A stretch of 64,000 nt of DNA from Paludisphaera rhizosphaerae (GTDB lineage: Bacteria > Planctomycetota > Planctomycetia > Isosphaerales > Isosphaeraceae): assembly GCF_011065895.1 (NCBI RefSeq), contig NZ_JAALCR010000016.1, positions 124,001-188,000 of the forward strand, in the 5' to 3' direction. Of this stretch, positions 47,714-51,704 are shown in pieces. Both the position numbers and the translations under genes were made by a program. The notes under the pieces were generated by a model. It was given only the letters and a program-made list of their open reading frames with translations, did not search any database and was not told the origin of the DNA. Each line of letters begins with the position of its first letter. Within the stretch, counting starts at the first letter, position 1.

Positions 47714-48293
47714 CGTGATGACTGCGCTCGCGAGCTGCCGCGGTTGGATGGGGGCCGTAGTTCAGGGCGGTTTTTCTGGGCGAGACGGCCCTGATCCCGC
47801 ACCCTCCGGCCGGATCGGCTCATGTTACGCCAATCCTGGACAGGCCTCAACCCGCCCCCGGAATTCCCTTCTCGAGTCGCACCGAGGCTGAGAACACCTC
47901 GGATCTCGGTTTAAGGGAGACCTAGGCTTTTTTATATGGCGGTTTCAGGCGCCGAGAACCTGATTTCAAGGCTTGAACCGGAATGGGTTCTGCATGATGG
48001 GACGAAGAAGGGAAGTGGGTCGCAAGGGCCGTCTGGCGGAGCTGGTGAGGAATAGTGTGATTATAACGGTGAAGACTGGGCAGTTTGGGAAATCTGTATA
48101 CTGCGGTTGTCCGAGTGATGGAAACGGTCGAGAGGCATGGCTAGATTGATTGGGATTGGAAGGTTCGGATGCTTTGAACGGTTGGGGTGATGAGTCGATC
48201 TTCGCCTTCTTCCCGTCTGCCGCGAGGTCTTCGAGGGGATCGGCGTCGATGCTCGTGGATGACGGCACTTTGTTTGGCAACAGGGGGACGACC
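47714..48293. other. Long intergenic region before the repeat wall protein
   Basis: About 580 bases between divergent genes, noticeably richer in A/T from 47900 on. It includes a T-run at 47928-47935, a small hairpin (GAACC and GGTTC, about 47975-47990) and a TATACT box at 48097-48102 without a good -35. If that box is used, the wall-protein mRNA would have a leader of nearly 190 bases. I could not identify an RNA gene. Confidence 0.5.
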
Positions 48294-50243
48294 ATGAGAA
48301 GAGATGGCGTGCTGCGTCGCGGGATCGCGGCGGGGTTGATCTCGGGGCTGTCGCTGGTCACCACGGTGTCGGCGGATGACAAGCCCGCAGCGTCGGCTCA
48401 GGCGGTGGCGGGTGGTGCGGCCGCACCGGCGACCACGACCGTCATGGTGCCGCAACGGCAGTTGACGTATGAGACGGTCTACGACATCCGCTGCGTCTGC
48501 GTGCCCGTGACGGTCGACAAGACCTGCTATCGGACGGAGTGTCGCACGGAAACCGTTCCGGTCACTCGGACTGTCTTCGAGACCGTCCCGACGACGGTGA
48601 ACGAAACTCGGTATCGAACCGAGACCAAGTCCCAGACGGTGCCCGTCACGAAGACGATTTACGAGTCGGTCCCCGTCACGGTGAATCAGACCCAGTACCG
48701 CACCGAGTACAAGACCCAGACGGTGCCCGTCACCCGGACGATCGTCGAGAGCGTCCCGGTGACGGTGAATCAGACTCAGTACCGCACCGAGTACAAGACT
48801 CAGACGGTGCCGATCAGCCGGACGATCGTCGAATCCGTGCCGGTCACGGTCGACGAAACCCGCTACCGGACCGAGATGCGGACGCAGATGGTCCCCGTCA
48901 AGAAGGTCGTCCCTGAGACCGTCAATGTGGAGCAGACCTACACGGTCAGCATCCCCAAGCAGGAAACGGTCAATCAGACGGTCACGAAGACCATCATGAA
49001 GCCCGTGACCACGATTCAGAAGCAGTACAACACCATCACCGTCATGAAGCCGGTGACCAAGACGACGTATCAGCCCCAGACCAAGACCGTGATGACCTCC
49101 CAGGTCCAGACGAGCTACGTCGACCAGACCTACACCGAGAGCACTCCGGTGACCACCTGCAAGCAGGTCGTCGAGCAGCAGGGGTGCTATGAGACGCGGA
49201 TCGTGCCGACTGTCACGCCGGCCCCCGCGCCGATGGTCGACCCGTGCGCTCCCGCGATCGGGACGCCGGCCGGCGGCTGCGGCCACAAGTGCGGGCATCG
49301 AATGAGCCTCGGCGGCTGCGGCCACTGCGGCGGCGTCAGCAGCGCCAGCCTCTTCAGCGGCGTGGTCGGCTCGCCTTGCGGAGCGCCCTGCTCCCAGGTG
49401 ACCTATTCGACCGAGCAGGTCTACGTCACGCGGCCTGTCGTCCGGCTCGTCCCTGAGACGACCATCGTCACTCAGACGAAGACCCGCAAGGTCCCCGTCC
49501 AGAACGTCATTCAGGTCCCGACGACCACCACGGAGTACGTGCCGCAGACCGTGACTGAAAACGTCGCGACGCAGGAGATCCAGACCGTCGACGTCCCCGT
49601 GACGACGATGCAGCCCACGTACGAGAGCGAGACTGTTCCCGTAACCCGCACCGTCTACGTCGCCGAGCAGCGCAAGCAGACGGTCCCGACCACGCAGTGG
49701 AAGCAGGTGACCGAGGACGTTCCCCAGCAGTACGCGGTCAAGGTCCCCTTTACCGTCCAGGTGACCCAGTATCAGCAGCAGACGAGGGTCGTCACTGAGA
49801 ACGTCACCCAGCAGGTGGCCGAGCGAATTCCCTTCACGGTCCCCGTCACGACGTATCAGCAGCAGACCAAGCAGGTGACCGAGAACGTCACTCAGCAGGT
49901 TGCGACCCAGGTTCCGTTCACCGTCCCGGTGACGACCTACCAGCAGCAGCCGAAGACCGTCACCGAGAACGTCACCCAGACCTACACGGTCCAGGTTCCG
50001 TACACGGTTCCGGTCACGAAGTATGAGATCAAGTCCAAGCAGGTGACCGAGAACGTCACCCACCAGTATTCGGTGCAGGTGCCCTACACCGTTAAGGTCA
50101 CGACCTACGAGACGAAGCAGGAGCGGGTGCCTCGTCAGGTTCCCGTCTGCCGCGAGGTTCTCGTGCCGGTGACCGTTCCTTGCCCGGCCCCGGCCACGAC
50201 GGTCCCCGCCGTCGCCCCGGCCGCCGCGTCGCCGCAGGGCTGA
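48294..50243 (+). CDS. YTV-type repeat cell-wall protein
   Basis: 649 residues made almost wholly of Val/Thr/Gln/Tyr-rich repeats after a signal peptide (about 1-27). The first block (about 45-320) repeats a unit of 32 residues with the core TVPVT-x(3)-ESVPVTV, e.g. NQTQYRTEYKTQTVPVTRT. A Cys/Gly/His-rich centre (about 315-365: GGCGHKCGHR, GGCGHCGG) separates it from a second block (about 375-620) with VTENVTQQV and PFTVPVTTYQQQ units. The pattern matches the YTV-domain proteins known from planctomycete protein cell walls, thought to be cross-linked surface components. Real start ATG 48294; a strong terminator follows. Confidence 0.8.
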   Translation: MRRDGVLRRGIAAGLISGLSLVTTVSADDKPAASAQAVAGGAAAPATTTVMVPQRQLTYETVYDIRCVCVPVTVDKTCYRTECRTETVPVTRTVFETVPTTVNETRYRTETKSQTVPVTKTIYESVPVTVNQTQYRTEYKTQTVPVTRTIVESVPVTVNQTQYRTEYKTQTVPISRTIVESVPVTVDETRYRTEMRTQMVPVKKVVPETVNVEQTYTVSIPKQETVNQTVTKTIMKPVTTIQKQYNTITVMKPVTKTTYQPQTKTVMTSQVQTSYVDQTYTESTPVTTCKQVVEQQGCYETRIVPTVTPAPAPMVDPCAPAIGTPAGGCGHKCGHRMSLGGCGHCGGVSSASLFSGVVGSPCGAPCSQVTYSTEQVYVTRPVVRLVPETTIVTQTKTRKVPVQNVIQVPTTTTEYVPQTVTENVATQEIQTVDVPVTTMQPTYESETVPVTRTVYVAEQRKQTVPTTQWKQVTEDVPQQYAVKVPFTVQVTQYQQQTRVVTENVTQQVAERIPFTVPVTTYQQQTKQVTENVTQQVATQVPFTVPVTTYQQQPKTVTENVTQTYTVQVPYTVPVTKYEIKSKQVTENVTHQYSVQVPYTVKVTTYETKQERVPRQVPVCREVLVPVTVPCPAPATTVPAVAPAAASPQG

Positions 50244-50316: not shown

Positions 50317-51177
50317 TCAGTCGACCGACCACCGGCGCGGCGGGGTGACTTCAAAACGACCCTTGGGCGGGGCGAAGCGAACGCCCGTCTGCCAGAGCAG
50401 GTCAGGCTGGTGCTTGGCGAGGAGGTACTTCATGACCACCTCGTCCGAGGGGGGCATCCCCGGATCCTGGAACACGACGCAGAGCCTGCAGAGGGCGCGC
50501 TTGGTGGCGACGTCCCAGACCTCGATCAGGCCGTGGGTCCGTCGCGGGATGCGATAGTACTTATCGCCGTTGCGGACGGTCAGGCAGTCGAACTGGCAGA
50601 ACTCATGGAATTCCTTCGGCTCCACGACATCCCGAACGAGTTCGGCGGCGACAAGCTCCGGAACTCCCACCTGATAGTCGGCGGCGTCGATCCGAACGGG
50701 CTCGTCGGAGGTAGGTTGAGGCTGGCTCTTCCCCTCGATGACCCGGAAGATTTCGCTTTCGACGAGCTTCGCATATCCCGCCCGCAGGCCCTGACTCGCG
50801 ATCACGAGTTGCGTGAACGAGGCCGCGCGGGCGACGACTTCATGCGCGAAAGCCGTGACCTCGCGCTGGAGCTTCTCCATCCAGTAGCGGAGCATCGTCC
50901 GGCGATCGGATTCGGAATAGCGGAAGTGTCGAGGTCCGACGTCCGGGATCGTCAGGTCGATCTCGCCGCGCTTGGGGTCCAGCGTCTTGAGCACGCTGTC
51001 ATACGAGGCTTCGCCGCGAACGAATCGAGCGGCGGCGTCGGCATGGTTGGTCGTCCGGACGCGGACGACCCGGTGGGTGGGCCTGGCGAGGAAGACGACC
51101 TCGCGTGAATAGGGGTCGCTCGCGCAATGCGCGTCCGCGACGTCGATCTCCCAGCGCAGATATCCGGTTCGGATCAT
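50317..51177 (-). CDS. Conserved-looking protein of unknown function, coupled to Gly-Gly small protein
   Basis: 286 residues without signal peptide or membrane segment. The first 100 residues are beta-rich, followed by a helical stretch (about 95-140) and a second mixed domain. The C-terminal third has KYYRIPRRTHGLIEVWD, a Cys pair (CRLC), and PPSDEVVMKYLLAKHQPDLL, a pattern I recall from other planctomycete proteins of unknown function. It begins 12 bases after the Gly-Gly protein and its ribosome-binding GAGGA overlaps that gene's stop, so the two are made together. No known E1, E2 or peptidase motif is evident. Probably cytoplasmic. Confidence 0.75.
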   Translation of the reverse strand: MIRTGYLRWEIDVADAHCASDPYSREVVFLARPTHRVVRVRTTNHADAAARFVRGEASYDSVLKTLDPKRGEIDLTIPDVGPRHFRYSESDRRTMLRYWMEKLQREVTAFAHEVVARAASFTQLVIASQGLRAGYAKLVESEIFRVIEGKSQPQPTSDEPVRIDAADYQVGVPELVAAELVRDVVEPKEFHEFCQFDCLTVRNGDKYYRIPRRTHGLIEVWDVATKRALCRLCVVFQDPGMPPSDEVVMKYLLAKHQPDLLWQTGVRFAPPKGRFEVTPPRRWSVD

Positions 51178-51189
51178 CGCGACGCGTCC

Positions 51190-51417
51190 TCAGCCGCCCT
51201 GGACGGCGGGGACGATGAGGATCTCGGGCGCCGCCGCGTCGAACTGCTTGATGACTCGCGTCTGGCCGGGGCCGTCGAGGCGGAAAGCCATGCGGCCGGG
51301 GGTGACGTGTTCGGCGAACTGGGCGGCGGCCGTCTGAATGGTCTCAGGCCGTCGCTCGTCCCATTCGGCGAGAGTGAGGTCGCCGTGTCCGGTCTTGAGC
51401 AAACGCAATTTGGCCAT
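51190..51417 (-). CDS. Small protein with C-terminal Gly-Gly, candidate ubiquitin-like fold
   Basis: 75 residues from the ATG at 51417 (GAGGATC upstream). The predicted order is strand (KLRLLKT), turn GHGD, strand (LTLAEW), helix (residues about 22-36), strand (MAFRLDG), strand (TRVIKQFD), strand (EILIVPAV), ending exactly in Gly-Gly at the stop codon. That is the order of beta-grasp proteins such as ubiquitin, MoaD and ThiS, whose C-terminal Gly is activated for conjugation or sulfur transfer; the ending also resembles the MoaD tail. Cysteine is absent. The fold is my inference. First gene of a pair with the 286-residue protein. Confidence 0.6.
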   Translation of the reverse strand: MAKLRLLKTGHGDLTLAEWDERRPETIQTAAAQFAEHVTPGRMAFRLDGPGQTRVIKQFDAAAPEILIVPAVQGG

Positions 51418-51516
51418 GGCAGTGATCCTCGATCGATCGTCCGTCCGGGGCTCCTGCAGTCTTCCCAGACTCCAACACAATCCTAGTCCGCATTCAAGCC
51501 GAACCTGACCGGACGG

Positions 51517-51560: not shown

Positions 51561-51704
51561 TCAGCCCTGCGCCGGAGCCGGAGCCGCCTCGGCCTTGGCG
51601 GCCGCCGCCTTGTCTTTCGTGAGCGTCTCCAGCTTGGGACGCTTCTTGCCGAACGTGCCCCGAGCCACCTTGCCGCGCCGGGTTCGCCTGTCGCCCTTAC
51701 CCAT
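51561..51704 (-). CDS. Small ribosomal subunit protein bTHX
   Basis: A 47-residue basic protein. Its first 24 residues (MGKGDRRTRRGKVARGTFGK and onward) match protein THX, a short peptide found at the top of the 30S head in some bacteria. The second half is an Ala/Lys-rich tail (KAAAAKAEAAPAPAQG) not seen in the shortest THX proteins. ATG at 51704 follows GGAGGA; a longer frame to 51782 has no support. Divergent from the DUF1549 gene at 51844. Confidence 0.85.
   Translation of the reverse strand: MGKGDRRTRRGKVARGTFGKKRPKLETLTKDKAAAAKAEAAPAPAQG

Follow-up and report, generated by a model that had tools for sequence, protein, structure and literature searches.

A predicted ubiquitin-like protein ending in Gly-Gly and a partner protein with an invariant cysteine form a conserved two-gene unit in Isosphaeraceae, phages and plasmids

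A small gene in Paludisphaera rhizosphaerae (genome of 8.05 Mb, contig C16) encodes a product that ends in Gly-Gly at its stop codon and lies next to a gene without a known family, which raises the question of whether the two form a tag- or sulfur-carrier-type unit and, if so, how its C-terminus would be activated. We addressed this question computationally, starting from a window of 64,000 nt, the whole stretch of DNA that was analyzed. The 75-residue product reported by the first-pass annotation was confirmed as an open reading frame (ORF) whose translation ends in ...EILIVPAVQGG followed by the stop, and is referred to here as Ubl (Table 1). The ORF list also offers an upstream TTG start that would give 96 aa; among homologues, conservation starts at the ATG, which is preceded by GAGG. 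Ubl matched no family in Pfam, NCBIfam or PHROGs, and the same collections returned none for its neighbor, here called P2, at E up to 10, in agreement with the annotation, which had seen no known domain in it.

Table 1. Features of the Ubl-P2 locus, in window coordinates
Feature	Position	Strand	Remarks
P2 gene	50317..51177	(-)	286 aa, without known family
P2 core domain (H-EEEE-H)	50377..50661	(-)	common to phage, plasmid and distant planctomycete partners
P2 Cys233 codon	50479..50481	(-)	invariant in 20/20 core sequences
Ubl gene	51190..51417	(-)	75 aa, beta-grasp-like, Gly-Gly at stop codon
Ubl C-terminal tail (APEILIVPAVQGG + stop)	51190..51231	(-)	CysO/MoaD-tail-like
Ubl ribosome-binding region (GAGG)	51418..51435	(-)	
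47-aa bTHX-like ORF upstream of Ubl	51561..51704	(-)	same strand

The annotation had further read a strand-strand-helix-strand-strand-strand order in Ubl and proposed it as a candidate ubiquitin-like protein. The order was reproduced by an AlphaFold model built from 31 rows (E2-8, E12-20, H24-37, E42-49, E52-56 and E65-70; mean pLDDT 89, pTM 0.76), in which residues 71-75 form a loose tail (mean pLDDT 54). Most of the 50 PDB matches listed for this model were beta-grasp proteins, all of them weak (Foldseek E >=0.024, TM <=0.46, Z <=4.8); the kinds represented were Ras-binding domains (RBD), PB1, ubiquitin/UBL, SUMO, UFM1 and protein L/G, and a molybdopterin synthase entry stood at rank 29. Against viral models, Foldseek gave no match below E 0.2. 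As modeled, the fold is likely a beta-grasp, and it stays unproven because the best E and Z among these matches are no better than 0.024 and 4.8.

Homologues were collected in two alignments, one of 31 Ubl (A1) and one of 29 P2 proteins (A2); from A2, copies that are truncated or interrupted, such as those of G034 and G020, were excluded. Profile searches detected Ubl in 38/45 order genomes, every one of which belongs to Isosphaeraceae, and in 24/26 of the good-quality ones, with one strong match per genome and, in G001, three additional partial matches (E 0.002-0.007). P2 was found in 39/198 genomes of the class, again all Isosphaeraceae. In every genome with Ubl (38/38), P2, or the start of P2 at a contig end, lies downstream on the same strand and contig. 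Both genes are absent from 6 of the 45 order genomes, and the remaining one (G033) carries a P2 fragment without Ubl. The P2 reading frame is broken by an in-frame stop in G034 (L048) and G022, reflecting either error or decay. The dN/dS values of both genes (~0.07-0.20, NG86; 7 comparisons for Ubl and 5 for P2) indicate that purifying selection acts on the pair in the host chromosome. Conservation of the pair together with these values places both ORFs beyond chance, and for Ubl an orphan gene or ORF artefact was thereby ruled out.

The two genes are separated by 12 nt in P. rhizosphaerae. The annotation called them translationally coupled, which the spacing does not demonstrate: the gap ranges from 6 to >600 nt in homologues, and an overlap or a gap of 1-3 nt, measured from the earliest start codon available to P2, was seen in 8/15 distant copies examined. 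No other gene around the pair recurs in more than 7 of 24 loci once shadow frames are set aside. The short ORF upstream of Ubl, whose product resembles ribosomal protein bTHX, was considered as a third member of the unit and rejected; outside the genus it is kept upstream of the pair by just some of the relatives, and it probably stands outside the Ubl-P2 module.

We then asked how far the pair extends beyond Isosphaeraceae. Among 392 genomes of the phylum, the Isosphaeraceae-only Ubl profile returned two true members, which again belong to Isosphaeraceae, plus two partial matches (E 0.008 and 0.009), and did not report the pair of a distant planctomycete, G074. This genome, from another planctomycete family, was the single match outside Isosphaeraceae of the P2 core profile (A3) in the same set (E 4.8e-10), and it encodes a 75-aa protein ending in LLVPPVVGG, 9 nt upstream of P2. 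Weak matches of the G074 P2 (E 0.1 and 0.4) pointed to Virus Rctr197k (KX853510, 197 kb) and LR756511 (595 kb), both of them named phage records. Each has a Ubl-like gene upstream of P2, in LR756511 with a further small ORF in between, and their P2 proteins are similar to one another (E 3e-9). These are the two records found with the pair among 50,697 named phage records; with ten IMG/VR contigs (L197-L199, L208-L213 and L217), viral records with the pair number 12. The Ubl of L199 in turn matched 12 Bradyrhizobium plasmids (E 5e-7 to 0.06). P2 adjoins Ubl in all six plasmid records fetched, although unannotated in L201; on these plasmids P2 is ~140 aa long, barely longer than the core, and Ubl is intact in 5/6 and frameshifted in L206. 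Bradyrhizobium-type proteins had no match in the phage collection. For the window protein itself, no convincing close phage or plasmid homologue was obtained, the distant ones being reached only via the G074 pair.

Profiles were built separately for the Isosphaeraceae, phage and Bradyrhizobium-type groups and compared with one another and with the single G074 sequence. The groups matched in 10/10 comparisons, five per protein, with P of 5e-9 to 1e-16 for Ubl and 2e-5 to 6e-18 for the P2 core, and 0/40 column shuffles reached any of these values. The comparison is independent in part of how the pairs were collected, since position next to P2 identified the Ubls of G074 and of the first phages, and position next to Ubl identified the P2 of the Bradyrhizobium plasmids. 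As all ten comparisons match, we consider Ubl-P2 an old two-gene unit.

Other matches were weak or were discarded. A Kitasatospora plasmid match (H36) was left uncounted, as the stretch read contained no Gly-Gly-ending frame and, by eye, no P2. PDB matches of the diverse Ubl alignment (A8) to pentatricopeptide repeats (E 3e-15) were set aside as non-relatives, since their score adds up some ten repeats, none of which contributes more than 5 bits. A WGR domain matched 1/20 diverse Ubl rows (E 0.22), and the G074 Ubl matched DUF7067 at E 0.0019 (18.4 bits, cut-off 27). With regard to surroundings, the Bradyrhizobium-type viral contigs (L209-L213 and L217) often carry the pair beside small lipoprotein- or holin-like genes, as in a lysis region, and in L213 it adjoins a terminase-like gene (all names by eye). 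Annotated CRISPR arrays lie near the pair in KX853510 (L195, 5698-5952 and 12916-14430), along with transposase-like genes.

The annotation had named homologues whose C-termini vary or run beyond Gly-Gly as grounds for refutation, and on this point the outcome is mixed: within Isosphaeraceae the dipeptide itself is invariant and its position is not. Gly-Gly is unchanged in 38/38 Isosphaeraceae Ubls, with the stop directly after it in 31, but 3-15 variable residues follow in the other seven (G018, G021, G022, G027, G032, G034 and G463). We do not take this overrun as refuting, because Gly-Gly never changes and because carriers matching PF02597 in the same family overrun it too, ending in GGGR in a MoaD-like protein (G001) and in GGSV in CysO-like proteins (3/30 loci). 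Processing of such ends has a precedent in Deinococcus, where, according to passages of PMC8832034, a fused MoaD-MoaE is processed by a JAMM protease to a free terminal glycine. Among sulfur carriers of the genomes studied here, ThiS-like domains in L167, L168, L170, L172 and L175 continue beyond Gly-Gly-Gly, giving open frames of 354-404 aa, which are possibly fusions with another thiamine enzyme. Similarly, the MoaD-like domains of L173 and L174 (genus g6) lie inside open frames of 275 and 250 aa, possibly MoaD-MoaE fusions.

Outside Isosphaeraceae, Gly-Gly stands at the stop in G074 (1/1), in 11/12 viral copies and in 5/6 fetched plasmid copies, the sixth being the frameshifted one. The viral exception is Virus Rctr197k, whose Ubl ends in Pro-Gly; LR756511 and all ten IMG/VR Ubls end in Gly-Gly. 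These counts bear on another view of the locus, an ordinary small pair of phage origin, such as a late accessory unit that Isosphaeraceae domesticated, whose Gly-Gly end would be incidental. Several viral copies do lie beside holin- or spanin-like genes and one next to a terminase-like gene (names by eye), and the mean column identity of the P2 core alignment is only 33%. Nonetheless, the tail keeps Gly-Gly in 19 of 20 diverse Ubl rows (Pro-Gly in one), even with identity to the first row as low as 22-34% in rows of the other groups, and purifying selection on the pair in the host chromosome also speaks against this view, which we regard as highly unlikely.

What, then, does the tail resemble? 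In profile-profile comparison with the CysO-like family of these genomes, only the last 14 residues of the Isosphaeraceae Ubl match, in register (APEILIVPAVQGG with KDEVSIIPAVAGG), at P 0.001, where 60 column shuffles reached 0.017 at best; without the tail, residues 1-61 gave no match to CysO (P 0.55). The Isosphaeraceae-only profile showed no convincing match to the MoaD tail or to ThiS. With the diverse alignment A8, the tail matched CysO (P 0.0003), MoaD (0.005) and ThiS (0.011), 0/60 shuffles reaching each value, and profile comparison gave no match to the YukD-type Ubl or the E2 family. We also designed a pattern from Ubl and carrier tails (hydrophobic-hydrophobic-P-[A/P]-hydrophobic-x-G-G-stop), which therefore partly matches these proteins by design. 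It occurs at 15 sites in six whole genomes, one of which ends in TGG instead of a stop, compared with 3 for the backward control pattern; each of the 14 sites with a true stop falls on a PF02597 carrier (MoaD- or CysO-like) or on Ubl, and nothing else is hit. Phage and plasmid tails such as FFPRLVGG and LPIAMVAGG depart from the pattern, so that its exact form describes the planctomycete copies only. PF02597 itself did not match Ubl at E up to 1, in either the 31 Isosphaeraceae or the 20 diverse rows. In each of 9 genomes scanned it finds three other genes, ThiS-, MoaD- and CysO-like by eye and none at the Ubl site. The idea that Ubl substitutes for a missing ThiS, MoaD or CysO was rejected on these grounds. 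The likeness of the tail to sulfur carriers could be convergent.

We next examined P2. Its core of ~95 residues is predicted to form a helix, four strands and a helix, and contains a Tyr, a Cys and an Asp that are invariant in 20/20 diverse sequences; the part N-terminal to the core varies between groups (by eye). The AlphaFold model (pLDDT 79.8) had no fold match in a structure search. The predicted helix, four strands, Cys and helix around the invariant Cys recall E2 ubiquitin-conjugating enzymes. Unlike in E2s, however, the Cys ends the fourth predicted strand and the HPN motif, characteristic of E2s, is lacking. UQ_con matched none of 29 P2 proteins and none of 5 distant ones, and hhalign against the E2 family of these genomes gave P 0.27 with 4/8 shuffles lower, hence a sequence relation not above shuffles. 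P2 as an E2 was rejected accordingly. No Pfam match to MoaE, ThiG or CysM was seen in 29 members, scattered weak matches including TilS substrate binding (E 0.041) and SAMP2 (E 0.2), each in 1/29. The annotation had suggested that the pair might be a new type of modifier and its target. The partner gene is a dedicated one, and since the core contains the invariant Tyr, Cys and Asp while the N-terminal part varies, a modifier or carrier with its dedicated acceptor is likelier than a modifier with its target. The Cys can also be a structural or metal-binding residue instead.

As to an activating enzyme, the annotation had noted that no E1-like gene is adjacent, and the neighborhoods of the homologues gave the same picture. 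Relatives of the E1, E2, operon JAB, MoeB (ThiF/MoeB-type) and Mec-like JAB of P. rhizosphaerae, whose proteins served as queries, gave no hit (tblastn, E 0.01) in 88 loci carrying the pair or part of it, a search that is blind to a divergent E1 or to one beyond the stretch read. The loci come from Isosphaeraceae, G074, phages and plasmids, span 963 to 18001 bases and include some duplicates. This result bears on the chief rival to an activated C-terminus, a non-covalent complex in which the Gly-Gly tail would insert into an active site or groove of P2 as a structural or regulatory element and would never be activated by an E1. Such a complex would fit the negative search of the 88 loci, the strict co-occurrence of Ubl and P2, the compact and sometimes overlapping two-gene units of phages, and the copies that overrun Gly-Gly without a gene for a known type of protease alongside. 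Yet a tail that merely forms a complex need not end at the stop, as it does exactly in 31/38 Isosphaeraceae and 11/12 viral copies, and this precise end, with the particular resemblance of the Ubl tail to those of sulfur carriers, points to a reactive C-terminus. On balance we find a non-covalent complex somewhat unlikely.

Candidate E1s are encoded elsewhere in the genome. Contig C21 of P. rhizosphaerae carries a separate operon of a YukD-like Ubl, an E2 (UQ_con E 3e-12), an E1 (ThiF) and a JAB. In this operon (L060, 5878-9644) the Ubl ends in VVAG and the JAB has a probable membrane segment and a long helical part (by eye). With all components of a classical bacterial ubiquitin-like pathway together in one genome, our Ubl might be a second modifier of that operon. 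However, the C21-type E1, present in 38/45 order genomes, is missing (E 1e-30) from 7, all of which have the pair and which include all four genomes of genus g6, and it is present in 7/7 genomes without an intact pair, several of the genomes compared being incomplete. An obligate link to the C21 operon was rejected on this basis, and a role as its second modifier appears most improbable. The four g6 genomes (L100-L103) carry a further ThiF-family gene, which is their best ThiF match.

A second E1 lies on contig C2, where the gene for this ThiF/MoeB-type protein accompanies a CysO-like gene (PF02597) and an aminotransferase-V-like one; on contig C6 a JAB gene adjoins a cysteine-synthase-like gene (names partly by eye). 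The CysO-like gene is present in 43/45 order genomes and has a MoeB-type E1 beside it in 29/30 loci read, the remaining locus being cut by a contig end; these genomes thus have available an E1 that can recognize a tail of this type. By analogy with passages of PMC3227635, in which one mycobacterial E1, MoeZR, sulfurates several carriers (MoaD1, MoaD2 and CysO), this MoeB would be the natural candidate if one E1 serves Ubl across Isosphaeraceae.

These genes also bear on a further alternative, that Ubl is itself a sulfur carrier with a thiocarboxylate C-terminus and P2 an enzyme transferring the sulfur to a small molecule or RNA, beside the MoaD-MoaE and CysO-CysM arrangements. Its tail matches CysO, MoaD and ThiS, the genome holds the sulfur-carrier genes of contigs C2 and C6, and a carrier gene next to that of its user is a known arrangement, as in moaD and moaE. 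Conversely, no known pathway appears carrier-less, given the three other PF02597 carriers in each of the nine genomes; P2 lacks a Pfam match to MoaE, ThiG or CysM beyond its scattered weak matches, and a phage late region is an odd location for a biosynthetic enzyme. We judge this alternative unlikely.

The reading we tentatively prefer is a two-gene cassette in which a beta-grasp Ubl would be activated at its Gly-Gly by a MoeB/ThiF-type E1 encoded elsewhere, with Cys233 of P2, together with the invariant Tyr and Asp, serving as dedicated acceptor. The host E1 would adenylate the exposed Gly-Gly end, and the activated end (acyl-adenylate, thioester or thiocarboxylate) would pass to P2, where the cysteine may receive or use it, resulting in either a protein conjugate or sulfur transfer. 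The E1 step rests on the likeness of a tail of 12-14 residues, because no E1 was seen traveling with the pair. Phage and plasmid pairs would use the E1 of their host, and from its compact form in phages the cassette seems to operate with components that a bacterial host provides. In Isosphaeraceae it would have become fixed as a chromosomal gene pair. A bolder version, which we hold to be rather unlikely, sees a phage-borne conjugation cassette devoid of its own E1, which borrows that of host sulfur carriers, whose P2 is a new cysteine transferase unrelated to E2, and which Isosphaeraceae have domesticated.

Ubl conjugation systems have been described in bacteria; they include the later Bil/CBASS-type ones, are defined by JAB and E1-like genes, and in some cases occur on mobile elements. 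The general kind is already known: a beta-grasp protein with a terminal glycine in a short operon, as for ThiS, MoaD and CysO and for the operon types and TAPI treated in passages of PMC1779556 (Iyer et al. 2006). Of the operon types 6a-6e in these passages, some on mobile elements, type 6d resembles Ubl-P2 in gene make-up, combining in a compact operon a Ubl with conserved terminal glycine and a further uncharacterized conserved protein; in contrast to Ubl-P2, beside which none was found, the types are defined there by JAB and E1-like genes. TAPI, as presented in the same passages, is a phage-borne Ub-like domain with a conserved terminal glycine and is described without an E1, like our Ubl, but it is flanked by the JAB/NlpC protein TAPK and by TAPJ and has a further C-terminal domain, whereas Ubl is mostly stand-alone and accompanied by P2.

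With CysO, MoaD and ThiS, Ubl shares its small size, beta-grasp-like order, free C-terminal Gly-Gly and hydrophobic-x-P-x-x-x-GG-like tail, and the user enzyme may likewise adjoin the carrier gene. It differs in that PF02597 does not match it and its body is unrelated in profile comparison, and the pair differs in having no recognizable E1 alongside and a P2 without match to the known users. As the tests for a ThiS profile, an E1-and-JAB operon and an E2 all fail, we assign Ubl-P2 to none of these families; it would work most like a carrier with a dedicated user. We found no description of the pair in open-licence papers. Bacterial Ubl systems are usually recognized by their E1, E2 and JAB genes, and a cassette lacking them is easily missed. 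The present one links a chromosomal pair of an environmental bacterial family (soil planctomycetes) to rhizobial plasmids and large phages, retains its Gly-Gly across such divergent groups and offers one named cysteine to mutate, which makes a tag- or sulfur-carrier-type cassette now open to testing. Should Ubl be charged by the host MoeB-type E1, it would be a direct example of a phage gene that plugs into the machinery of cofactor biosynthesis, and would show one way for sulfur carriers to become modifiers.

Elsewhere in the window, positions 48150-50243 (+) encode a 697-aa protein of repeated Thr/Val/Gln-rich segments, and a 737-aa frame antisense to it is probably its shadow.
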